From contig CP030277.1 of NCBI GenBank assembly GCA_003330885.1, positions 3,336,001-3,400,000 on the forward strand: a DNA stretch of 64,000 nucleotides, read 5' to 3'. Source of the stretch: Rhodobiaceae bacterium (GTDB taxonomy: Bacteria > Pseudomonadota > Alphaproteobacteria > Parvibaculales > Parvibaculaceae). A model generated the notes under the pieces. That model did no database searches, was not told the origin of the DNA, and saw nothing but the letters and a program-made list of their open reading frames with translations. Below, piece by piece: positions 16,895-19,591 of the stretch; position 1 is the stretch's first letter; each line of letters begins with the position of its first letter. The position numbers were made by a program, and so were the translations under genes.

Positions 16895-18304
16895 ATGACT
16901 GCACCGGCCTCCATGCCGCCCCATGCCGACGACATGTCTCTGATGGAACATGTGAAGCGCACACTGAAGCTTGCCGGTCCGGTGATCGTCGCGCGTGCGG
17001 GGATACTCGTCCTTTTTACTGTGGACACGGTCATGGTGGGGCAAGTAGGCGGAGAGGAGCTCGCCTTCCTGGGCCTGGGCATGGCGATCCAGGGCGTCAT
17101 CATGCTCGTGTGTATCGGCCTTCTTCAGGGCACCATGATCCTGTCGTCCCAGGCATATGGCGCCGAAGAACACAAAAAGTGCGGGGAGGTCTGGCGATCA
17201 GGCACATATCACGCGCTCGTTTTGGGTGTCGTTCTGGGTCTCATCTGCCTGGCTGGGGAGAGCCTTCTTCTGCTGTTCGGACAGTCTCCCTCTCTTGCGG
17301 CGGGCGGCGGAAGTACATCGATCCATTTCGGCTGGGGCATGCCGGCCATGCTGCTCTATGTCGCCTCAAGCTACTTTTTGGAGAGTGTTCAACGCCCGCG
17401 GGTAGGCATGACAGTGATGCTTATCGTGAACATTCTAAACTTTGCGCTGAACGGAATGTTGATCTTCGGTTGGGGTGGGACCGGTCTCGCATTGGGCGCC
17501 GACGGTGCGGTGATCGCCACCTCAGCTGTACGTTGGATCGCGGCCCTTGCCATGGTGGGGTACATCGTTTCTTTGCCGCTACGTCAGGGTGAGGATCAGT
17601 TTGGTGTTTGGGCACCCTGGAAGAAAGTTGTCCATGATGCCCTGCGCTTGAGTGGGGCGCTCGGCGCCAAGATGCGCAACCTCGGGGCCGCAACTGGCAT
17701 GGCCTATGGACTTGAATCAGCGGCCTTTTCCTCGCTTGTTTTTATGGCTGGGGCGATTGGACCGGCCGCCCTTGCTGCTCACCAGATCACCAACAATGCC
17801 GTGGCACTCATGGTCATGGCTTCCATCGGAATGGCTGCTGCGACGGCTGTGCGTGTTGGGAATGCGGTAGGGCGTCAGGACCCTGCAGGTGTTCGCATGG
17901 CTGGATGGGTCGGGCTGGGCCTGGTCGCGATCCTGCTCTCTTTTCCGGCCATAGCCATGTTGATCGTGCCCTATGGCATCGCGACCTTGTATGTGAATGA
18001 ATTGGAAGTGCTGGAAATCGCCCGCTGGACGCTTCTTGCGGCGGGCATTTTTATTGTTGCCGATGGCATGATGAACGTCGCCATGGGCTCGCTCCGTGGC
18101 ATGGGCGACGTCTGGGTGCCCATGTTCATGCACATCTTCGCATTCTGGTGCGTTGGCGTGCCCGTGGCGTGGGCCTGTGCCTTCCATTTTGATCTCGGTG
18201 CCGTCGGCCTTCAGATCGGCATCGGGGCCGCGGTGTTTCTGTCTGTAGGCATGCAGGTGGTCCGCTTTTCGCTTGTCTCCAAGCGACCGATTAAGCGCGC
18301 CTAA
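16895..18304 (+). CDS. MATE family efflux transporter
   Basis: 469 residues with about twelve hydrophobic helices. The N-terminal segment LKLAGPVIVARAGILVLFTV followed by DTVMVGQVGGEELAFLGLG is the classic MATE start. The middle holds MRNLGAATGMAYGLESAAF, the start of the second six-helix bundle, and AAHQITNNAVALMVMASIGM. MATE pumps export cationic drugs or metabolites in exchange for Na+ or H+. The start could also be one of two downstream methionines, because the ribosome site before 16895 is weak. The stop overlaps that of the convergent TetR gene. Confidence 0.92.
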   Translation: MTAPASMPPHADDMSLMEHVKRTLKLAGPVIVARAGILVLFTVDTVMVGQVGGEELAFLGLGMAIQGVIMLVCIGLLQGTMILSSQAYGAEEHKKCGEVWRSGTYHALVLGVVLGLICLAGESLLLLFGQSPSLAAGGGSTSIHFGWGMPAMLLYVASSYFLESVQRPRVGMTVMLIVNILNFALNGMLIFGWGGTGLALGADGAVIATSAVRWIAALAMVGYIVSLPLRQGEDQFGVWAPWKKVVHDALRLSGALGAKMRNLGAATGMAYGLESAAFSSLVFMAGAIGPAALAAHQITNNAVALMVMASIGMAAATAVRVGNAVGRQDPAGVRMAGWVGLGLVAILLSFPAIAMLIVPYGIATLYVNELEVLEIARWTLLAAGIFIVADGMMNVAMGSLRGMGDVWVPMFMHIFAFWCVGVPVAWACAFHFDLGAVGLQIGIGAAVFLSVGMQVVRFSLVSKRPIKRA

Positions 18305-18867
18305 TTTTCCAGCGCCTTATCAATCAGGATCGCCGCCGCCGACCGAGCTGAATCTATCGCGATCTCTCTGTCAGAAACCTGCGCGGTGACAATCGCTCCT
18401 TCAAGCAAAAGAGAAAGTTGATTGCCCAGAGATGTAGGGTCGGCAGCGCCGGTCTCTTTGGCCAGGCGGACGATGTAGTCTGTCATCTGTTGTTTGAAGT
18501 CGCGGCAGGCATTTCGGATTGGTGTATCAGCCTTTGAGTATTCCCCAACTGCATTGATGAAGACACATCCATAAAAGCTCGGCGTTTCAAACCAGGCTTC
18601 TGCCACATCAAACACCGCCATCAAACGAGTGCGCGGATCAGATGAAGTTTGCTCCACCTGACGCATGAAATGATTGCGAAAGCTCCCGTCATGTTCTTTC
18701 AAAACGGCGAGGATAAGTTCGTCTTTGGATCTGAAGTGGGTGTAGAGCGTTTTCTTCGAGACGCCGGCATCTCCCAGGATTTTGTCGATGCCTGTGCCAT
18801 GGAATCCGTGCTCCATGAATAGGTCACGGGCCACGGTCATCAGATGGTCTCGCCGACTTTGGGGCAT
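18301..18867 (-). CDS. TetR family transcriptional regulator (AcrR/NemR type)
   Basis: 188 residues from the ATG at 18867 with CGGAG upstream. The helix-turn-helix is GIDKILGDAGVSKKTLYTHF, followed by RSKDELILAVL. The C-terminal domain with FYGCVFINAVGEY resembles the TetR_C group found in NemR-like sensors of reactive electrophiles. Two matching palindromes, one 11 bases upstream of its own start and one in front of the divergent YHS-protein gene, suggest that it represses both. Its stop codon overlaps the MATE stop by four bases. Confidence 0.88.
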   Translation of the reverse strand: MPQSRRDHLMTVARDLFMEHGFHGTGIDKILGDAGVSKKTLYTHFRSKDELILAVLKEHDGSFRNHFMRQVEQTSSDPRTRLMAVFDVAEAWFETPSFYGCVFINAVGEYSKADTPIRNACRDFKQQMTDYIVRLAKETGAADPTSLGNQLSLLLEGAIVTAQVSDREIAIDSARSAAAILIDKALEN

Positions 18868-18877
18868 GGCAGTTCTC

Positions 18878-18895
18878 CGAAACAGATTGGTTTCC
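18878..18895. promoter_or_regulatory. Candidate TetR operator 1 (own gene)
   Basis: CGAAACAGATTGGTTTCC is an imperfect palindrome that matches the perfect site at 19054-19071 in 15 of 18 bases. It lies just upstream of the TetR gene's ribosome site, so binding would block its own transcription. Confidence 0.65.
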
Positions 18896-19015
18896 CTGAA
18901 TATAGGGTCGGAGCCGCCTTTGTCGATCACATGGCTGTGATATTTTTTTGAGAAGTCTCGAAATAAGCTTAAAAAACAAATGATTAGAAGGTTTTTGACA
19001 ATTTGCGCCCATGCC

Positions 19016-19044
19016 TTGAACAAAGAAACCGAACTGTCTATCTG
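19016..19044 (+). promoter_or_regulatory. Candidate promoter of YHS-protein gene
   Basis: A -35-like TTGAAC (19016-19021), 17 bases, then a -10-like TATCTG (19039-19044). The predicted start of transcription (about 19051) falls just before the perfect palindrome at 19054, a normal layout for repression. Confidence 0.45.
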
Positions 19045-19053
19045 TAGTCCCAA

Positions 19054-19071
19054 GGAAACAGATCTGTTTCC
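19054..19071. promoter_or_regulatory. Candidate TetR operator 2 (YHS-protein gene)
   Basis: GGAAACAGATCTGTTTCC is a perfect 18-base palindrome, 61 bases upstream of the YHS-protein start. It is the better of two similar sites that flank the TetR gene and its divergent neighbour. Confidence 0.7.
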
Positions 19072-19132
19072 CTCTCATGGAGTTTCCACCGGCTTGGGGC
19101 CGGGGAGCAGAACCAAGTCAAGGAGAAGACCC

Positions 19133-19591
19133 ATGGTATCCGTAAAAGCTTTTTTCACGGCAGCTGCCGCTGCCTTCCTTCTACTGGGCGTGCAGGTCGC
19201 ACAGGCGGCTGATGGTCATTCAACAGTAGGTGTCGCTGGATATGACCTTGTTTCATATCACGCCAACCCAAAGCCATTGCGCGGCAACGGTCACAATGTG
19301 TCTGTCCATGACGGCGTGACTTACCTCTTCGCAAATGCAGACAACAAAGCAACTTTCGACGCTGACCCAGCGAAGTTCCTGCCAGCCTATGGTGGCTATT
19401 GCGCATTCGGCGTGTCTGTTGGCAAGAAGTTCTTCGGTGATCCAGAGGTATGGCGCATTGTTGACGAGCGCCTGTACCTCAACCTCGATGCTAAAATTCA
19501 GGATCTGTGGCTGCAGGACGTTCCTGGCAAGATCGCCACAGCTGATGAGCTCTGGGGACAGATCGAAGACACACCTGCTAGCGAACTCTAA
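19133..19591 (+). CDS. Exported YHS-domain protein
   Basis: 152 residues from the ATG at 19133, preceded by AAGGAG. A signal peptide (VSVKAFFTAAAAAFLLLGVQ, cleavage near AQA-ADG) leads to a single YHS-type domain: GVAGYDLVSYH, DGVTYLFANADNKATFDADP, KFLPAYGGYCAFGVSVGKK. YHS domains are linked to metal binding or metal-enzyme partners, but this secreted form has one cysteine (GGYCAFG) and no assigned role. It is divergent from the TetR gene and has a strong operator-like palindrome upstream, so it is the most probable target of that regulator. Confidence 0.85.
   Translation: MVSVKAFFTAAAAAFLLLGVQVAQAADGHSTVGVAGYDLVSYHANPKPLRGNGHNVSVHDGVTYLFANADNKATFDADPAKFLPAYGGYCAFGVSVGKKFFGDPEVWRIVDERLYLNLDAKIQDLWLQDVPGKIATADELWGQIEDTPASEL

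Follow-up and report, generated by a model that had tools for sequence, protein, structure and literature searches.

Here, we describe a predicted regulatory circuit in which a cysteine-based TetR repressor would control its own gene together with genes for an exported YHS-domain protein and an exported cytochrome P460, through shared operators. We give this model as a whole a probability of roughly 70%. It builds on three palindromic sites between the divergent regulator and YHS genes, on their conservation and spacing across genomes, on a further copy before an unlinked P460 gene, and on a cysteine that is invariant among the aligned regulators.

Results

Three operator-like sites between the regulator and YHS genes

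The window, by which we mean the whole stretch of 64,000 nucleotides that was analysed, contains the following features at this locus.

18301..18867, minus strand: TetR/AcrR-type regulator gene, 188 aa, with TetR_N and TetR_C_13 domains; its start codon is placed where the orthologues begin
18878..18895, no strand: predicted operator O3, CGAAACAGATTGGTTTCC (16-mer core 18879-18894), within the regulator's leader
18899..18926, minus strand: predicted regulator promoter, TCGACA-16-TATATT, which agrees with the consensus at 10 of 12 positions
19016..19044, plus strand: predicted YHS promoter, TTGAAC-17-TATCTG, read from the sequence
19025..19040, no strand: predicted operator O2, GAAACCGAACTGTCTA, within the 17 bp that separate the two elements of the YHS promoter
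19054..19071, no strand: predicted operator O1, GGAAACAGATCTGTTTCC, a perfect palindrome at the predicted YHS transcription start
19133..19591, plus strand: gene for an exported YHS-domain protein, 152 aa, NF041384 (YHS_seleno_dom)

A preliminary description of this DNA had reported the palindromes at 18878-18895 and 19054-19071 as a matched operator pair. Both sequences lie exactly there, with 15 of 18 bases identical, and operator-like sites are indeed common to the regulator and the YHS gene; the pair, however, belongs to a set of three predicted sites, the conserved site at 19025-19040 having been missed, and is better called a triad. O3 ends 10 nt from the ATG of the regulator gene (18867, minus strand) and falls at the transcription start expected of the regulator's promoter, next to which the block TGTCGATCACAT is conserved in the genus. 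O1 ends 61 nt before the YHS ATG (19133), and O2 lies 30 bp from O1. The plausible promoter described just upstream of the YHS-side site is also found as stated: its TTGAAC and TATCTG elements are kept in the five nearest species of the intergenic alignment, the window's included, and it scored below threshold in the consensus scan that found the regulator promoter.

Two other stretches of this region are conserved. The inverted repeat ATCACATGGCTGTGAT at 18918-18940, on the upstream side of the regulator's promoter, is conserved in the genus as TGTCGATCACATGGCTGTGA and may be a site for another regulator. The 5′ leader of the YHS gene (19075-19132, GGAGTTTCCACCGGCTTGGGGCCGGGGAGC...AAGTCAAGGAG) is almost the same across five species of the genus and is missing from the others; it does not form a conserved reading frame. 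A short open reading frame considered within this leader was dropped, as genome G004 has lost one base there.

Comparison between genomes

Taken by itself, the window lends weak significance to the palindromes. The pattern GGAAACN6GTTTCC with at most two mismatches occurs four times, against 2.8 expected by shuffling, and only O1 and O3 match it with 0-1 mismatch. Because the two-mismatch pattern is not significant in the window, it was tested by comparison between genomes. Nor is the bare GAAACN6GTTTC enriched in the organism's own genome (six places, five for the reversed control). Four of these places lie elsewhere: two are inside long reading frames, and two (C1:854413-854428 and C1:2328588-2328603) are in stretches that hold no reading frame of at least 80 aa; the latter palindromes lack a GATC-type centre and may be chance occurrences or weak sites. 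A looser operator pattern matched 122 times and its control 215 times, which made it unfit for counting, yet it revealed the P460 site described below.

A regulator search over 61 genomes gave eight loci (L007-L014) in which the regulator gene and a close YHS gene are transcribed divergently. The preliminary description was to be abandoned if the palindrome proved absent from orthologous loci; instead, the exact GAAACN6GTTTC is present in all eight, in two copies in four of these, and it is lacking from L015-L024, the ten TetR loci that ranked next in the search. Moreover, O1 and O3 are kept in eight of eight aligned intergenic regions, much of the remainder of which has drifted (57% mean column identity). 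Comparison between genomes thus settles the question of significance, and the palindromes are confirmed as real. In two loci of a sister genus (L018 and L019, from G027 and G020), a TetR gene whose product is 41-42% identical has a distant YHS relative some 1.2-1.9 kb away and lacks the strict operator pattern.

A conserved layout in a regulator clade

Scanning contigs with the regulator alignment yielded a wider set, of which the best 80 loci were kept (some are identical to L008, L010-L012 and L014). Among these 80, the gene divergent to the regulator encodes a YHS protein in 21 and a cytochrome P460 in six. In the regulator tree, 26 of 82 rows form one group with support of 100/100, which holds 16 YHS-linked and all six P460-linked members; the tree is midpoint-rooted and the NemR branch very long, so the placement of NemR is uninformative. 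Nine loci of this clade (four YHS, five P460) have a gene for an AhpD-like carboxymuconolactone decarboxylase alongside, and other branches among the best 80 loci carry SDR, GST, alpha/beta hydrolase, PNPOx-like and DUF1348 genes. Longest-ORF gene calls had mislabelled the neighbours of L041, L043 and L058 and were replaced by a later neighbour assignment.

To score sites, we used a weight matrix made from partner-side operators only, which gives O2 and O3 of the window 19.9 and 20.4, respectively. An equivalent of O2 lies on the regulator side of O1, 27-33 bp away (mostly 30-33 bp, about three helical turns), in 23 of 25 clade loci, with a mean of 0.02 and a maximum of 1 in 300 shuffles; the exceptions are L040 and L047. 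For O3, 22 of 25 loci have an equivalent in the leader of the regulator gene, against an average of 0.13 and a maximum of 2 in shuffles; it is below threshold in L048, L057 and L066. These counts omit the 26th clade member, L087, which was scored separately and has one site, and the 25 loci share common ancestry, so that the counts are not independent. In the intergenic alignment, likewise, no O2 is visible in G008 (the genome of L040) or G012. The clade loci with an operator in the regulator's leader span alpha- and gammaproteobacteria. Outside these 25, the matrix finds at least one site in 39 and at least two in 20 of the 56 other loci (raw counts without shuffle control, L087 included), and the three-site layout recurs there, for example in L062, L067, L068, L080, L091, L097 and L111.

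A strict 5-6-5 site, with perfect complementarity and AC/GT inside, precedes 34 of the 80 regulator genes, compared with a mean of 1.1 and a maximum of 5 in shuffled controls. Its outer bases vary symmetrically by lineage, as GAAAC/GTTTC, GAGAC/GTCTC, TAGAC/GTCTA or TATAC/GTATA. Since the loci are related by descent, this symmetric change is a better argument for a dimeric protein than the counts are.

A predicted unlinked target and the distribution of the operator

A two-gene regulon had been predicted from the window. That estimate proves too small. Searching the organism's own genome, we find the extended pattern GGRRACNGATCNGTYYCC only twice, in the YHS promoter and at C1:2675904-2675921, about 0.68 Mb from the TetR-YHS locus. 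The second match lies 25 nt upstream of a cytochrome P460 gene, between it and a preceding gene for a flavin amine oxidase on the same strand. With a near-identical site before the P460 gene in three more species as well, the predicted regulon would comprise TetR, YHS and P460. By the weight matrix, the genus has a single site in its P460 promoter instead of a pair. The block CACGAAAATGTCAGTTCTCAA (L122:4955-4985 and its equivalents in G001-G003), some 50 bp further upstream than the P460 operator, is conserved and could be the promoter region of P460 or a different site.

In 13 chosen genomes, GGRRACNGATCNGTYYCC occurs exactly twice in each of G000-G003 (YHS and P460), once in each of G004, G008 and G012 (YHS), and nowhere in the other six; the reversed pattern has no match in any of the 13. 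One of those six, G006, has GGAAACAGTTCTGTTTAC before its P460 gene. G004, G008 and G012 keep the regulator and a P460 homologue (only 46% identical in G004) with no recognisable site before the latter, which argues against a strict rule. On a broader scale, the 18-mer GGRRACAGATCTGTYYCC is absent from 382 of 385 alphaproteobacterial genomes; the three that contain it (G000, G002 and G003) have two copies each, and all possess the TetR-YHS pair. P460 is found in eight of 40 family genomes, the same eight that have close YHS and close TetR homologues; the TetR search took in 37 of the 40, which is also the number searched for all three genes, and several of the eight are close relatives, so that these are not eight independent events. 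Taken together, operators common to YHS and P460 in one genome and a gene order common in other lineages mean that the link between TetR, YHS and P460 appears twice.

Near the four other YHS_seleno paralogues of this genome, the operator pattern has no exact match. Two of the genome's YHS_seleno paralogues lie in tandem (L124:3938-5084, that is, C1:1747937-1749083); next to them are a gene resembling those of flavin monooxygenases and a TetR gene other than the one studied here (L124:2988-3569), and this second TetR-YHS neighbourhood likewise shows no exact match.

One alternative is that the palindromes serve some other regulator, such as a second TetR protein, and that the neighbouring TetR gene is a bystander. 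The own genome offers 27 further TetR matches, and the PsrA operator has similar halves (GAAAC/GTTTC-like), though with a gap shorter than N6. We regard this as quite improbable, given that the sites lie in the leader of this very type of TetR gene in 22 of 25 loci across two classes of proteobacteria, that strict sites are missing from five chosen genomes that have no orthologue of the regulator, and that no such site precedes the gene of a 36% identical TetR paralogue in the own genome. It is also conceivable that O1 acts in RNA, as a 5′ hairpin that stabilises the YHS messenger: given the predicted start, it would lie at the extreme 5′ end of the transcript with a 7-bp stem, and symmetric lineage changes preserve a stem as well. 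But O2 sits in a promoter spacer, which is untranscribed, and O3 in the leader of the other gene; the P460 site shares the sequence and not pairing alone; and the whole YHS leader folds no better than shuffles (z -0.58). An RNA role is accordingly very improbable, and binding of the sites by the neighbouring TetR protein is the reading we prefer.

The regulator and its cysteine

The regulator belongs to the TetR family by both Pfam domains (TetR_N, 55.8 bits against a cut-off of 24; TetR_C_13, 38.7 bits against 27), and its structure is predicted with a mean pLDDT of 93.4. The best structural match is SCO4454 of Streptomyces coelicolor (3g7r; Z 24.3, rmsd 1.7, 184 residues aligned), followed by SAV143 (3jsj; Z 21.0) and, third, E. 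coli NemR (4yze; Z 20.4, rmsd 2.4, 184 aligned). Among solved structures, SCO4454 is the best match by sequence too (E 2.8e-23, 29% identity), with a common F-x-GC motif. Cys101 aligns with Cys106 of NemR, a correspondence that concerns position and not reactivity, and is invariant in 46 of 46 aligned sequences (the window's and 45 from the best 80 loci).

The regulator had been called NemR-like, which is apt for its fold, the position of its cysteine and the geometry of its operator. The E. coli nemR leader contains TAGACCGACTGGTCTA, an operator-like 16-bp palindrome (TAGAC-CGACTG-GTCTA) with the same 5-6-5 spacing; its half-site is TAGAC in place of the window's GAAAC, and TAGAC is found in some relatives of the window's regulator. 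Membership in NemR is another matter. Identity is 25% over 116 residues, and 3g7r scores higher than 4yze. In NemR, Lys175 bonds to Cys106 upon oxidation, whereas the corresponding residue here is Gln163, with Gln in the seven other close orthologues too. One palindrome is seen in the nemR leader, and nemR, nemA and gloA run in one direction, as opposed to three operators and divergent or unlinked targets; the target genes differ from those predicted here, and no nemA or gloA homologue is among the immediate neighbours at the locus, which encode a MATE transporter, the YHS protein and an M20 peptidase. That the regulator is a NemR orthologue, a hypochlorite/electrophile sensor with Cys106-Lys175 chemistry controlling reductase and glyoxalase genes, therefore appears improbable. 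Judging from sequence and structural model, it resembles NemR in anatomy and would be filed as an analogue rather than as a member of that family.

TetR pockets usually take ligands non-covalently, and the repressor might be real while responding to an ordinary drug or metabolite in this way. Cys101 could then be structural, because the cysteine is also present in the Streptomyces relatives 3g7r and 3jsj; it is, in addition, retained even where the partner genes differ greatly. We consider this a serious alternative, though less likely than not. Cys101 takes the place of the cysteine used for sensing in NemR and, probably, of Cys100 in AltR, as far as the available part of the AltR report goes (PMC13178969), and the partners in the wider family are of detoxification type (AhpD-like, GST, SDR, alpha/beta hydrolase and a PNPOx-like flavoprotein). 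A thiol-reactive signal perceived through Cys101 would fit these features better.

According to the same part of that report, E. coli NemR is autoregulatory, and AltR of Pantoea ananatis is a NemR-related TetR repressor whose Cys100 is essential for sensing thiosulfinates and whose inverted-repeat operator, with an N6 centre, is found in its own promoter and in further copies in its cluster (PMC13178969). The system described here would share with it a NemR-related TetR protein, an N6 inverted repeat in the regulator's own promoter and the cysteine, the last compared by description. AltR differs in its half-sites (CAATCTAC/GTAGATTG) and in serving the alt thiosulfinate-tolerance cluster, and the available part of the source mentions neither YHS nor P460 (PMC13178969).

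The YHS and P460 proteins

The YHS product had been described as exported, and its N-terminal hydrophobic stretch (read by eye) and its match to NCBIfam NF041384 (124.1 bits, cut-off 70) agree with this; Pfam YHS gives 20.7 bits, under the cut-off of 30.3. The protein has a single conserved cysteine, Cys90 in the motif GGYC, which is invariant in 20 of 20 aligned YHS proteins. YHS selenoproteins of the NF041384 type have the motif GxU, according to the available part of the source (PMC13188914); the window protein has cysteine, not selenocysteine, at this position. Its structure prediction is good for residues 31-152, and a Foldseek search with the model returned no significant match (best E 0.49). 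Two candidate fold relatives, toluene monooxygenase hydroxylase (Z 3.8-4.7) and a ciliary protein (Z 7.5 over 59 residues), were set aside as below trust. In the literature searched, no published regulator or function of this YHS family turned up.

The P460 gene encodes a protein of 198 aa whose N terminus has a hydrophobic stretch and which contains a CLGCH haem motif (CxxCH) and a cytochrome P460 domain (PF16694, 91.8 bits against a cut-off of 27). Like Methylococcus P460, it keeps the haem-crosslinking lysine, which is invariant in 11 of 11 rows by spacing and alignment; the distance to the first haem cysteine is 62 residues in McP460 (78 to 140) and in 6amg alike. In contrast, the distal Asp102 of the Methylococcus enzyme is replaced by Phe132 in 11 of 11 rows, as judged by alignment only, in place of an acidic residue. 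Because of this replacement, oxidation of hydroxylamine by the protein is doubtful, and binding of a ligand such as NO seems likelier.

Discussion

How might the circuit work? The TetR protein would be an autoregulatory repressor whose dimers bind the three 16-bp operators (5-6-5, xxxAC-N6-GTxxx). Binding at O3, which coincides with the regulator's own predicted transcription start, would bring about autoregulation. On the YHS side, where O2 sits within the promoter and O1 about three helical turns further on, at the predicted start of transcription, polymerase would be blocked, and occupied operators would exclude RNA polymerase from both divergent promoters. The fourth copy, at the unlinked promoter, would place the exported cytochrome P460 under the same control. 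A reactive chemical may modify Cys101 or bind beside it, upon which the repressor would leave the DNA. The derepressed cell would then make two exported proteins, the cysteine-containing YHS protein and the haem protein, presumably against the same periplasmic stress.

More tentatively, the clade as a whole may represent a stress circuit in which cysteine-bearing TetR proteins of alpha- and gammaproteobacteria, with a fixed three-operator layout, control interchangeable exported effectors (a YHS protein, in some relatives with selenocysteine in place of the cysteine, or an atypical P460 haem protein) as well as an AhpD-like protein. In or at the periplasm, these would act together against a single reactive species, which might be a nitrogen oxide or an organic peroxide. 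Divergent TetR autoregulation and cysteine-based TetR sensors are already known. As far as the literature was searched, two features are new, namely the layout of three operators found in this clade and a predicted regulon that unites YHS with P460: no paper among those listed links the YHS, P460 and TetR families or treats YHS together with P460.

Through this work, one branch of the YHS (seleno)proteins gains a predicted regulator, a putative co-regulated partner in cytochrome P460 and an exact candidate operator, so that the function of these YHS proteins becomes approachable by finding the inducer. The layout rule, two operators about three turns apart and one in the regulator's leader, may be used to predict the targets that many TetR relatives have in further genomes. 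Finally, the circuit would give the YHS and P460 proteins a testable role in defence against chemical stress.
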